13,700 nt of DNA, taken from Nitrosarchaeum sp. (GTDB lineage Archaea > Thermoproteota > Nitrososphaeria > Nitrososphaerales > Nitrosopumilaceae). The number at the start of each line of letters is the position of its first letter. Positions within the stretch are counted from its first letter, which is position 1. Under the pieces are notes generated by a model. That model was given only the letters and a program-made list of their open reading frames with translations, ran no database searches and was not told where the DNA came from. This document shows, in pieces, positions 210 to 8,744 of the stretch. The stretch lies in contig JACRND010000105.1 of assembly GCA_016234975.1 (NCBI GenBank), positions 1-13,700 of the forward strand, in the 5' to 3' direction. Both the position numbers and the translations under genes were made by a program.

Positions 210-803
210 ATGAAACTAATCCAAAAATTTTCAAATTCATCACTTGCAAAAACTAGCACACTTGTATCACTCGTTTCAATTCTTGCAGTAATTGGACCTT
301 TTGTAGTAGTGTCTGCAGGTTTTTGGGACGCAATATCTCATCTTCAAAAAAGACCTGAGTTATTTTGGAGTATGCCACACATTGTAGTTTACACTGGTGT
401 TTCAATAACTACCAGTGCTGCAATCATAGGAACAATCCTTTTACTTAGAAACTCTACAAAAAATTCTTTAAAAAAAGGAATTACTCTAGTAATTTCTGGC
501 TCATTAATTCAGATAGTTGCAGGTTATGCCGATTCAATTTCACATGATGTTTTTGGAATTGATGGTTTGATCTCTTGGTCACATCAACCGCTGGAATTTG
601 GTTTGGTCTTATCTGCATTAGGCGGATTTCTAATATTAAAAAATCTGGAAAAAACAAAACTCAAAGTGTTTCTTCCTTTCTCAATTATCTCATTTTTATT
701 TTTTACAACCTGGCTTGTTTTTAATCTGGTTTTGATTTTTGGAAATACAATACAATGTCTTCCAGTCTACAAGATATTTTTATCTGGCTGCTCAATATTG
801 TAA
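210..803 (+). CDS. Five-helix membrane protein with two D-x3-H-x12-H motifs (AmoC/PmoC-like copper-site signature)
   Basis: This 197-residue protein has about five membrane helices (residues ~14-36, 56-79, 88-106, 126-145, 153-177). Positive loops at 80-90 and 144-152 and a Lys-bearing N-terminus place helix loops 1-2 and 3-4 outside the cell. Both outer loops carry the same motif: D40-x3-H44-x12-H57 (FWDAISH ... MPHIVVYTG) and D108-x3-H112-x12-H125 (YADSISH ... SHQPLEFG), exactly 68 residues apart, so the protein looks like a duplicated two-helix unit. Known: the PmoC copper site uses Asp156, His160 and His173, the same spacing, and a second nearby site uses Asn227, His231 and His245. Inferred: a metal-binding membrane protein, possibly a distant AmoC/PmoC relative. 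Archaeal AmoC is of similar length. Substrate and partners are unknown and no other amo gene is in the window. The ATG start follows an AT-rich leader with TTCATAAATT near 160-170. The 3' end overlaps the opposing gene by 37 bases. Confidence 0.75.
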   Translation: MKLIQKFSNSSLAKTSTLVSLVSILAVIGPFVVVSAGFWDAISHLQKRPELFWSMPHIVVYTGVSITTSAAIIGTILLLRNSTKNSLKKGITLVISGSLIQIVAGYADSISHDVFGIDGLISWSHQPLEFGLVLSALGGFLILKNLEKTKLKVFLPFSIISFLFFTTWLVFNLVLIFGNTIQCLPVYKIFLSGCSIL

Positions 804-1258
804 TTTTTTAATTTCATATACGATGACACAATAATCATCATTGCACCTACCAGTATCATCACACCTGGAGGTATCATGTTTTCAGAGTTTGCATCTCCAA
901 GTTCAACTTGCAGATTTATTTGGCTCTCTGATGGATTTGTTATCTTTGCAGTATAGGTACCACTCTTTTCAAAATTAAAATAGCCTACAGACATTTTTGT
1001 TTGAACACTTTCTTCTGATATTACGTTCTGATTGTTATCTAAAATCTGAACAAACACTTGATTACCTACAAATTCTGGCATGAATACTTTGTAGTATCCA
1101 ATACCTTTTCCATTAAAACTCAACTCTAAATCATACGAATTAGTTGATTTTAACACAATTTCTTCAGATATTTTGTCTCCTTGGAGAAAAACAAGTGATA
1201 TCCAAATCATTCCAATCACACTCAACACTAAACCAATTTTGAATAGGGAAATCTTCAA
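767..1258 (-). CDS. Anchored extracytoplasmic protein, family not recognised
   Basis: This 163-residue protein has an N-terminal helix (residues ~5-26), an outer domain of about 100 residues and a C-terminal helix (~131-150) followed by a short Lys-rich tail. The outer domain is rich in alternating hydrophobic and polar strands and in Asn, Gln and Ser, with KSGTYTAKITN-type turns, suggesting a beta-sandwich like those of pre-peptidase or GOLD-like domains. It contains no His and no Cys, so a cupredoxin or AmoB-type copper role is not supported. The start is a TTG at 1256-1258. The upstream ATG alternative is out of frame and stops at once, and a TATA-like run at 1283-1293 lies about 29 bases upstream, as for a leaderless archaeal mRNA. 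It converges on the D-x3-H-x12-H membrane protein and shares 37 bases with it. Function unknown. Confidence 0.7.
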   Translation of the reverse strand: MKISLFKIGLVLSVIGMIWISLVFLQGDKISEEIVLKSTNSYDLELSFNGKGIGYYKVFMPEFVGNQVFVQILDNNQNVISEESVQTKMSVGYFNFEKSGTYTAKITNPSESQINLQVELGDANSENMIPPGVMILVGAMMIIVSSYMKLKNYNIEQPDKNIL

Positions 1259-6821: not shown

Positions 6822-7784
6822 ATGAATCAACATAATCAAGAAATTTACAGAACAACATCAGCAAGAACTGGAAAAATGTTGGCAATAATACTAGGTGTTT
6901 GCATCGTTGGCGGTGTAATTTTCTTTGGCATGTGGGATTACTGGATTTCATATCAAGCTCCAGTAGTTGCTAAAATGGCAGGAGAATCCGAACATAAACT
7001 TGCACCAGGTGTAGCAACTGGTAAACACATGGATGTGACTCTGAACTTTATTGAATCACCTGATTTCAAAACATTTGCATTTAATGCATTACCTGGTGAA
7101 GAAGGACACAATCCTACAATTAATGCAAACGTTGGAGATGAAATTGTCTTTAACGTTGCAAATGGAGGAAAATCATTTCACGCATTTGGTGTAACCAAAG
7201 CAAGTGAAGGAGCTACAGGAATCATTTCAACTAGTGAAATTAAAAGTGCTTCAAATCCGCTAAAACCTGGCGAAAGTGGCACATCTGAATTTATTCCATC
7301 TGAGGAAGGAACTTACTACTACATCTGTACAGTTCCAGGACACAGAGAACAAGGTATGGTTGGAGAGATTATTGTGGGTCCGGCACAAGTAGGAGAAGCT
7401 CCAAAGGCTGCAGCCCCAACTGGAACTCATCTTGATTTTAGTGTAAATTTCATCGAATCACCTGATTTCAAAACATTTGCATTTAATGCATTACCTGGTG
7501 AAGAAGGATACAATCCAGAGTTCAAAGTAAAATCTGGTGATGAAATTACTTTTTCAGTGACAAATAATGGTAAATCATTTCATGCATTTGGAATTGTCTC
7601 GGATCCAGAAAACGTCAATAGCATACTTTGGAATTCTGCAATTGCATCTGCGTCAAACCCAATAAAACCCGGTCAAGGCGGTAGTGTTACCTTTATTGCC
7701 GGTGCACCAGGAACTTACTACTACATCTGTACAGTTCCAGGACACGCATTACAAGGAATGAAAGGTTCATTCATAGTAGAATAA
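6822..7784 (+). CDS. Membrane-anchored tandem cupredoxin (plastocyanin-like, two type 1 copper domains)
   Basis: This 320-residue protein has a cytoplasmic N-terminus, one membrane anchor (residues ~18-38) and two outer cupredoxin domains (~68-186 and ~202-320) joined by a Pro/Ala linker (QVGEAPKAAAPTGT). Both copper sites are complete: H120, C169, H174, M179 and H254, C303, H308, M313, each in the C-x4-H-x4-M pattern (ICTVPGH...GM). Lying in the oxidase operon, it is the likely electron donor to the CuA site, replacing cytochrome c (inference from context; copper electron carriers are well established in this lineage). Two DNA blocks are repeated without any change between the domains, 402 bases apart, pointing to recent exchange. 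CtaA starts two bases after its stop. Confidence 0.9.
   Translation: MNQHNQEIYRTTSARTGKMLAIILGVCIVGGVIFFGMWDYWISYQAPVVAKMAGESEHKLAPGVATGKHMDVTLNFIESPDFKTFAFNALPGEEGHNPTINANVGDEIVFNVANGGKSFHAFGVTKASEGATGIISTSEIKSASNPLKPGESGTSEFIPSEEGTYYYICTVPGHREQGMVGEIIVGPAQVGEAPKAAAPTGTHLDFSVNFIESPDFKTFAFNALPGEEGYNPEFKVKSGDEITFSVTNNGKSFHAFGIVSDPENVNSILWNSAIASASNPIKPGQGGSVTFIAGAPGTYYYICTVPGHALQGMKGSFIVE
7053..7106 (+). repeat. 54-base direct repeat, copy 1 (cupredoxin domain 1)
   Basis: This 54-base stretch, encoding ESPDFKTFAFNALPGEEG, is identical to 7455-7508 with no synonymous difference over 18 codons, although the flanking codons differ. Together with the 36-base pair at the same 402-base offset it suggests gene conversion between domains. 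Confidence 0.9.
7308..7343 (+). repeat. 36-base direct repeat, copy 1 (copper loop of domain 1)
   Basis: This 36-base stretch, encoding GTYYYICTVPGH with the copper-binding Cys and His, is identical to 7710-7745. Confidence 0.9.
7455..7508 (+). repeat. 54-base direct repeat, copy 2 (cupredoxin domain 2)
   Basis: Identical copy of 7053-7106, exactly 402 bases (134 codons) downstream and in the same frame. Confidence 0.9.
7710..7745 (+). repeat. 36-base direct repeat, copy 2 (copper loop of domain 2)
   Basis: Identical copy of 7308-7343, again 402 bases downstream, so both repeat pairs reflect one domain duplication. Confidence 0.9.
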
Positions 7785-7786
7785 TA

Positions 7787-8230
7787 TTGGCTCTAAAATA
7801 TCTCGCATTAGCATCTCTGATTATTTTGTATTCTTTGATGTTCATCGGAGGATATGTCTCCTCAGCTGGACTTGGATTGACTTGTCCTGAGTGGCCCCTT
7901 TGCCCAAATGGTGTGTTGCCTGATGAAAAATATTTCATTGAATGGACTCATCGATTAATTGCTGTAACCACTGCTACACTTGTAATTGTAACTGCAATTG
8001 TAAGTTGGCTTAACAAAAATGCCGGCAGAAAGATAAAATTCACTAGTGCTTTTGCAGCAACTCTTGTAATTACCCAGATAACTTTGGGTGCTATAGTAAT
8101 TAATCTAAAACTTCATGCTGTACTTGTTGCAATTCACTTGGGAGTTGGAATACTGTTGTTTTCAATGGTTTTACTAACTGCATTGTTTGCATTTAAAATT
8201 GCAAAAAAACCAATTGAATCTAAGATTTAA
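7787..8230 (+). CDS. ctaA: Haem A synthase, archaeal half-size CtaA/Cox15
   Basis: This 147-residue protein has four membrane helices (~4-24, 57-75, 87-107, 112-136). Family marks are GGYVSSAGLGLTCPEWPLCP with the Cys pair C33/C39 in the first outer loop, EWTHR with haem-ligand His55, QITLGAIVI, and H110 and H117 (AIHLGVG). Bacterial CtaA is a fused duplication of eight helices; archaeal forms with only four are known and may work as dimers. The enzyme oxidises the C8 methyl of haem O to make haem A for COX I, which fits its place at the end of the oxidase operon. The TTG start at 7787 lies two bases after the cupredoxin stop, so translation is probably coupled. Confidence 0.85.
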   Translation: MALKYLALASLIILYSLMFIGGYVSSAGLGLTCPEWPLCPNGVLPDEKYFIEWTHRLIAVTTATLVIVTAIVSWLNKNAGRKIKFTSAFAATLVITQITLGAIVINLKLHAVLVAIHLGVGILLFSMVLLTALFAFKIAKKPIESKI

Positions 8231-8744
8231 CTTTGAAATGTAACCTCTTTGGCAGATAAATATATGCTACAACTACTCCTAACGTAATAGCTCCTATTGT
8301 GATTGCTATGATGAAAATATATCCAAATGGACTTTGAGTACTCATGTTAAATGTATAAGTTAGAATTCCTGGTTTACCACCCATATCGTATAGATCTACT
8401 TTAACAACATGATTTCCTGGTTTTTTCCAGACATAGTCCATTTCGTAATGACCACCTTTGTGTAATTCTGGGTTTATTGCATCAACTTGTTGATCATTGT
8501 AAAAAAATCTAACACCCATTGTAAAGTGATCAACTTCATTAAAGTTACTGTCTCCAACTCTAAATAGAATCTGTGATTTTTCTCCTATCTGTGGAAATTC
8601 TGGTAACGTTGCAACCTGAACTCTGTACCCTCCAAGAAATTCTTCAGCGGAATTAAACATCGAATGTGCATATGCATTAGAAAATAAAGGAACTATGCCA
8701 AGTACTAAAACAAACATGATTACAATTGATCGCAAATTCGTCAT
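8220..8744 (-). CDS. Secreted, C-terminally anchored beta-domain protein with predicted N-terminal histidine
   Basis: This 174-residue protein has a signal peptide (residues 1-26, ending in the cleavage motif A24-Y25-A26), an outer domain of about 110 residues, and a C-terminal membrane helix (~138-162) with a basic tail (KRLHFKVKS). Cleavage would leave His27 as the first residue (HSMFNSAEEF). The outer domain is beta-rich, with FPQIGEKSQILFRV and KKPGNHVVKVDLYD strings recalling YtkA/FixH/CopC-like immunoglobulin folds, and further His at 73 (VDHF), 95 and 99 (HKGGHYE) and 112. A role in copper handling or oxidase assembly is plausible next to the oxidase operon but unproven. It overlaps the end of ctaA by 11 bases in convergent orientation. 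A TATA box at 8769-8776 supports the ATG start at 8744. Confidence 0.8.
   Translation of the reverse strand: MTNLRSIVIMFVLVLGIVPLFSNAYAHSMFNSAEEFLGGYRVQVATLPEFPQIGEKSQILFRVGDSNFNEVDHFTMGVRFFYNDQQVDAINPELHKGGHYEMDYVWKKPGNHVVKVDLYDMGGKPGILTYTFNMSTQSPFGYIFIIAITIGAITLGVVVAYIYLPKRLHFKVKS

Follow-up and report, generated by a model that had tools for sequence, protein, structure and literature searches.

We suggest that the 197-residue membrane protein encoded at positions 210..803 (forward strand) of a 13,700-nucleotide stretch of the Nitrosarchaeum sp. contig JACRND010000105.1 (the whole stretch analysed, hereafter the window) is an outward-facing copper-handling relative of AmoC and belongs, as a small stand-alone protein, to a prokaryotic family sharing the AmoC/PmoC metal-binding core. 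We put the probability of this reading at about 0.5. AmoC and PmoC are the C subunits of the copper membrane monooxygenases (CuMMOs), which oxidise ammonia and methane. The open reading frame (ORF) has five helices in the predicted model and two sites of the form D-x3-H-x12-H. Direct support exists for the motif and its conservation, for the duplication, for membership in a wider family, for the similarity of this family to AmoC/PmoC and for the copper neighbours of one bacterial branch. Copper handling is proposed because the site is the CuC site of PmoC, relatives are found among copper genes and the features of the second PmoC site, CuD, are absent.

Two Asp-His-His sites in a duplicated hairpin

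The ORF scan detected D-x3-H-x12-H at residues 40 and 108 and at no third place. Site 1 (327..380, forward strand) consists of D40 (327-329), H44 (339-341) and H57 (378-380), and site 2 (531..584, forward strand) of D108 (531-533), H112 (543-545) and H125 (582-584). All four His of the protein (44, 57, 112, 125) are motif residues, and its four Asp are at 40, 108, 113 and 118. Two motifs were found in 0 of 200,000 composition-preserving shuffles of the protein and at least one motif in 0.11%, so the exact double motif read in the initial annotation is confirmed by the scan and the shuffles.

Passages of two sources (PMC7584546, PMC12576850) give the PmoC ligands as Asp156/His160/His173 and Asn227/His231/His245, the numbers quoted in the initial annotation. 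The spacing, proposed there to be the same as in the window protein, is shared at the first site (x12) and not at the second, where PmoC has x13. Archaeal AmoC does carry one D-x3-H-x12-H and one N-x3-H-x12-H, as the initial annotation stated.

The archaeal protein is a tandem duplication of a two-helix hairpin with one Asp-His-His site per copy. Alignment of half 1 against half 2 by hhalign placed the repeats at residues 24-76 (279..437, forward strand) and 92-144 (483..641, forward strand). For A1, an alignment of 27 rows (13 from short orthologues, 14 from longer relatives of 315-508 residues), the halves matched each other with a probability of 94.8% over 53 gapless columns with the ligands in register, and the halves of the bacterial relatives described below matched at 95.1%.

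The predicted model (mean predicted local distance difference test score 80.4, predicted template-modelling score 0.79) has long helices at residues 15-45, 55-79, 85-115, 125-145 and 150-182, and at both sites the D/H pair closes one helix while the second His stands at or just past the start of the next. The mean number of Lys and Arg per successive loop in 59 short rows was 3.0, 1.0, 2.2, 0.0, 4.0 and 0.3. Since the positive charges sit in the loops of the opposite side, both triads should be on the outer face of the membrane. The placement in outer loops between paired helices, claimed initially from the letters, agrees with the model and with this positive-inside count, and the two triads are predicted to share the same membrane face.

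In A1, D40, H44, H57, Y61, H112 and H125 are present in 27/27 rows and D108 in 26/27, the sole row without it being a protein named Aigarchaeota (L040), with Asn at this position. Among the matches listed, all six D/H positions, whose conservation the initial annotation had left to a family alignment, are kept in 120 of 121 short sequences (the query plus 120; one H57R, the other five ligands in all) and in 120/120 long paralogues, and no orthologue group without the ligands was found. Six sequences (P0122-P0127) found with L040 (1080-2027) have Asn at 108. The second site of L040, N-x3-H-x13-H, has the residues and the spacing of PmoC CuD, and its first site has x14.

The family was detected in 46 of 300 genomes of the phylum. 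These include 42/44 genomes of f1 (the family of the window, by homologue names Nitrosopumilaceae and an ammonia-oxidising group; short and/or long form), 3/3 of family f3 and one genome of f16, with 0/3 in f2. The close named homologues are from Nitrosarchaeum, Nitrosopumilus and Nitrosopumilaceae, and a second copy of the protein was not found in the source genome, which has a completeness of 78%.

The wider family and its relation to AmoC and PmoC

Pfam, NCBIfam and PDB sequence searches with the window protein or A1 gave nothing above cut-off; PF04896, TIGR03078 and NF041641 had no match over cut-off in the window protein, and PF04896 matched 0/27 A1 rows at an E-value (E) <=1. The Pfam profiles of CopD, CtaG, DUF998 and cytochrome b561 gave no match at E<=1 in the window protein and the 27 A1 rows, DUF998 occurring merely as the source's name for two of the homologues listed. 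No Pfam match over cut-off was detected in the family members scanned, and no AmoC in the phage collection.

The family extends to Actinomycetota, Chloroflexota, Deinococcota and Bacillota. Long archaeal relatives, used as queries against plasmids, weakly matched bacterial proteins in which both motifs occur (E 0.002-0.6), and the plasmid members of the family keep the six ligands in 12/12. A profile of these twelve members detected the family in 25/149 genomes of the phylum of Streptomyces and in 19/101 of the phylum of a Chloroflexi bacterium. Two bacterial types were distinguished: type-1 proteins (~480 residues; Actinomycetota plus one Trueperaceae and one Chloroflexi locus) have D-x3-H-x12-H followed by D-x3-H-x13-H, the latter with the PmoC CuD spacing, and type-2 proteins (~330-400 residues) have spacings of x12 or x14, and x16. 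The second half of the long archaeal relatives was ruled out as a repeat of the first (0.4%).

The archaeal profile A1 matched the bacterial family profile A3 at 99.3%, and 98.0% remained with the six ligand columns masked, so the archaeal-bacterial link is independent of the motif. A1 matched A7, the profile of 44 of the 56 type-1 loci (near-duplicates and cut or odd loci omitted), at 98.5%. By these profile comparisons the window protein is a member of a wider double-triad family with two [D/N]-x3-H-x12..16-H hairpins in register.

Conservation of the first D and H in type-1 is not independent, because the scan patterns contained them. The motif check of 54 of the 56 type-1 loci (without L124 and L149) found the first motif in 53 and the second in 51. 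In L117 the start chosen by the script lies past site 1 and Arg replaces the first His of the second site, and in L147 and L148 the second motif was missed, the reading frame ending after site 1. In the phylum of the Chloroflexi bacterium, tandem pairs of family genes were seen in three genomes (L213, L214, L215), and the phylum of Streptomyces has more distant forms in open frames of ~600-900 residues.

The distant kinship to AmoC/PmoC suggested in the initial annotation is borne out for the family, and we consider homology very probable, through a chain from the archaeal proteins to the bacterial ones and from these to CuMMOs. The search set comprised 8,134 distinct ORFs of at least 100 residues from the loci examined and was searched in both directions. 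The profile A8, built from twelve CuMMO C subunits (seven bacterial rows, with archaeal ones), matched 38 AmoC/PmoC ORFs and 65 further ORFs at E<=10, and all 65 belong to the double-site family (45 at E<=1e-3, best 6e-9). Single AmoC/PmoC queries retrieved family members in 12/12 cases (best 8e-8), with one unrelated match overall (E 0.043). In the reverse search, A3 retrieved 38/38 AmoC/PmoC ORFs (best 2.4e-12), A1 34 and A7 33, and no unrelated ORFs were retrieved. One bacterial member has weak matches over site 1 to the Pfam AmoC profile (E 0.044), TIGR03078 (0.034) and NF041641 (0.058).

Profile-profile comparison, which had been named as a check on the kinship, gave similarity to A8 for the archaeal set A1 (86.8%; other direction 93.9%), the bacterial set A3 (95.5%; 96.3%) and A7 (86.6%; 93.1%), and the pooled family reached 96.8% (E 2.8e-10). 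When archaeal AmoC was the sole target, the values were 55.6% (89.7%) for A1, 95.2% (95.0%) for A3, 64.5% (87.7%) for A7 and 95.5% for the pooled family. Both triads are in register in the printed family-CuMMO profile alignments. Unrelated membrane families, 10 and then 20 in overlapping sets, stayed at or below 2.4%, and at or below 4.7% among the top four printed per query. Reversed-profile controls reached at most 9.1%, with the exception of the low-diversity archaeal AmoC profile against its own reverse (59.6%).

The archaeal family halves matched the corresponding CuMMO halves at 65% and 34%, versus 0.3% and 1.4% when crossed, the pattern that a duplication predating the split would produce. 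No clear pairing was seen for the halves of the bacterial family (first 96.1%, second 7.0%; crossed 34.9% and 14.3%), and the duplication was not detectable between the AmoC halves themselves (0.8%).

Convergence, with an unrelated membrane protein resembling AmoC at the ligands only and carrying outer D-H-H sites for zinc, iron or heme, is unlikely. Blanking the ligand columns leaves A3 able to retrieve 31/38 AmoC/PmoC ORFs, 26 of them at E<=1e-3, with no other match; the printed alignment of AmoC to the family covers AmoC residues 15-153. The better pairing of matched than of crossed archaeal halves and the copper neighbours of type-1, described below, also argue against convergence. A8 with its ligand columns blanked, however, retrieves two ORFs only, both of the double-site family.

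Copper-handling reading and gene neighbourhoods

Copper genes were detected near 39 of the 56 type-1 loci (4 of the 39 by a P-type ATPase alone), using a panel drawn from type-1 plasmid neighbourhoods after inspection, which may miss other copper genes and may also register non-copper ATPases through its P-type ATPase reference. In the copper-handling reading, an ancestral two-helix hairpin would have been duplicated in tandem, each copy carrying an outward Asp-His-His site. Each site is predicted to bind one copper ion at the outer face of the membrane, with copper as the metal inferred for the archaeal protein. The protein would take up, hold or pass on copper outside the cell membrane, its two sites presumably acting jointly, and possibly cooperates with an exported beta-domain protein. 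The copper would be delivered to copper enzymes, for instance ammonia monooxygenase (AMO) or the terminal oxidase.

Several results weigh against this reading. Copper-panel genes were found around 0/18 bacterial loci outside type-1, and a copper link for the entire family was rejected on this count; in archaea the panel detected only cox genes, and one cupredoxin in the 20 long-relative loci. With the ligand columns blanked, A1 and A7 retrieve no AmoC ORF from the search set, and with both sides masked the profile-profile values fall to 4.9-15% for A1, 3.8% for A7 and 36-79% for A3. The short archaeal sequences alone match CuMMO at 27.5% or 9.0% and retrieve no AmoC ORF at E<=10 from this set, and A8 retrieves 2/36 short ORFs (E 0.0014 and 0.013). 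The link of the short group to AmoC therefore runs via the bacterial relatives. PmoC is absent from the fold-search lists (PDB Foldseek, VIA-align) of the archaeal and bacterial models, an absence that under the rule of the search tool counts neither for nor against the fold. No Foldseek match at E<=0.001 was found for either model, a viral library also being searched with the archaeal one; cytochrome b561, STEAP and helical bundles rank high for the archaeal model, and the bacterial list is taken up by the beta domain. Two of the three f2 genomes have AmoC and no member of the double-site family, and AMO can thus work without it.

This last result also bears on the idea that, in Nitrosopumilaceae, the protein serves AMO as an auxiliary or assembly factor, loading or guarding AMO copper or adjoining AMO in the membrane. 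The kinship of the family to AmoC and its presence in 42/44 genomes of this ammonia-oxidising group would fit such a factor, but we consider it improbable. Amo genes were found in none of 36 short loci (177 kilobases, window included) and in none of 20 long loci (318 kilobases; 20 regions, part of those found), although the scan detected 4/4 control amo loci; its two flags in the test loci are the family genes themselves. Clustering of archaeal amo genes is not universal.

Relatives also occur in hosts without bacterial-type AmoA, which was detected in 0/30 type-1 host genomes; this test is limited to the bacterial type, because the model detects two plasmids with hmoA-like genes and missed both archaeal genomes tried. 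The suggestion of an AmoC paralogue in the narrow sense is not supported, the protein belonging to a separate and wider family that occurs in such hosts. The new complexome subunits AmoY (9.6 kDa) and AmoZ (12.8 kDa), reported beside AmoX in the passages available of PMC10030591, are of other size.

The convergent neighbour p163 (767..1258, reverse strand; 163 residues) consists of a helix, a beta-type domain assigned from weak Pfam matches and another helix, with no Pfam family over cut-off. Its gene adjoins the short gene convergently in 36/36 loci, which cover 36 of the 37 short orthologues, and the 3' coding ends of the two overlap antiparallel by 37 base pairs (767..803), a conserved coding overlap of 37 base pairs in 34/36 loci and of 34 in one, while the script detected no overlap in the remaining locus. 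In its C-terminal tail, predicted to lie outside, the window protein has a Cys pair (756..791, forward strand; C183 at 756-758, C194 at 789-791) that is invariant in 121/121 short sequences; part of the C194 conservation may stem from the next gene, because C194 falls in the overlapped stretch.

F1, a small exported immunoglobulin-like protein, has its gene immediately upstream of that for the long relative in 7/20 loci (L163 7154-7723, L165 7186-7773, L168, L169, L170, L176 and L164), with a 4-base-pair overlap in L163 and L176. Most rows have the His-rich end P-H..S-H-[YF]-P..D-H-Q-[ND]-E, and L164 is without most of it; F1 may also hold metal. In type-1, the beta domain is fused to the membrane part. 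The shared plan of a membrane double site with an outer beta domain is only suggestive, because the three partners are not detectably related. An AmoB-like identity was rejected for F1, p163 and the bacterial beta domain, which have no profile similarity to AmoB or to one another.

Elsewhere in the window, the gene at 7787-8230 (forward strand) encodes a heme A synthase-like protein of about half length (147 residues; best stretch 73-170 of 322 of COX15-CtaA) and closes a cytochrome oxidase cluster that includes 6822-7784, with two cupredoxin-type stretches. The gene at 8220-8744 (reverse strand), convergent with ctaA and overlapping its 3' end, encodes an exported protein with AH after a signal-like helix, a C-terminal helix and no Pfam match over cut-off.

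Evolutionary reading and comparison with known systems

A tentative evolutionary reading, which we hold with less than even confidence, is that CuMMO subunit C is one branch of an old duplicated-hairpin family whose other branches are copper-handling. The window protein would keep the symmetric Asp/Asp state, and the monooxygenase would have arisen via the Asp to Asn change, the Phe pocket and the joining of subunits A and B. If this is true, the Asn-second-site members found with the Aigarchaeota protein would be an intermediate or a parallel case. Neither a relative of CuMMO subunit C outside CuMMOs nor a description of the double-site family was found in the open-licence PMC papers searched; the passages available of the papers on CuMMO evolution (PMC6215863) and on a Thermoplasmata CuMMO (PMC9038741) deal with true CuMMOs. 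Through a non-CuMMO family in which this duplicated site recurs, the active site would gain an ancestry, and the wider family may reveal the origin of the ammonia/methane monooxygenase active site. Such a family would also offer a simpler testable model, with one small protein in ammonia-oxidising archaea and genetically tractable relatives in soil bacteria.

In common with PmoC/AmoC (PF04896, TIGR03078), the family has a pair of helix hairpins in succession, each bearing a [D/N]-x3-H-x12/13-H triad, and the CuC triad is present as D40/H44/H57. Four positions past the third site-1 ligand stands an aromatic residue, which is Phe in the 7 bacterial A8 rows and Tyr in archaeal AmoC and the window protein. 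CuD (Asn227/His231/His245, helices gamma5 and gamma6), surrounded by Phe177, Phe240 and Phe248, is the active site according to passages of recent work on particulate methane monooxygenase (PMC11194816, PMC9445010), whereas in 2020 CuC was argued for as the active site in passages of PMC7584546. The CuD Asn is Asp in 241/241 short and long archaeal sequences, versus Asn in 12/12 A8 rows. In A6, an alignment of 89 rows (the query with 58 short and 30 long homologues, each set drawn from 120 listed), Phe240 is replaced by Leu in 87/89 and Phe248 by Leu in 89/89, both being Phe in 12/12 A8 rows, and the second-shell Arg165 is Pro in 89/89 and Arg in 12/12 A8 rows. The archaeal members further differ in that amo genes were not found near them in the loci described above.

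A membrane oxidase or oxygenase that acts on a different substrate, one of its two sites being the active site, would fit a first site equal to CuC by sequence and a second at the CuD position, but the Asp and Leu replacements at CuD and the dissimilarity of F1 and p163 to AmoB make it the least probable explanation. Our best reading of the sequences is that the archaeal protein is not a monooxygenase, the CuD Asn and the Phe pocket being missing.

Compared with cytochrome b561 and STEAP, the window protein has no Pfam match and has its four His at outer helix ends, within D-x3-H-x12-H. The CopC/CopD and YcnJ copper import systems differ by the lack of a Pfam CopD match in the family members given above, and their likeness, at the level of how they may work, is a membrane domain and an exported beta domain around copper, as described in passages of PMC3817396. 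The type-1 bacterial hypothetical proteins (e.g., WP_014805643.1 and WP_024126299.1) are longer than the window protein (~480 residues), carry additional helices and, at the C-terminus, a CrdA-like beta domain and retain Arg165 (44/44 A7 rows), and they share with it the same duplicated double-triad domain.
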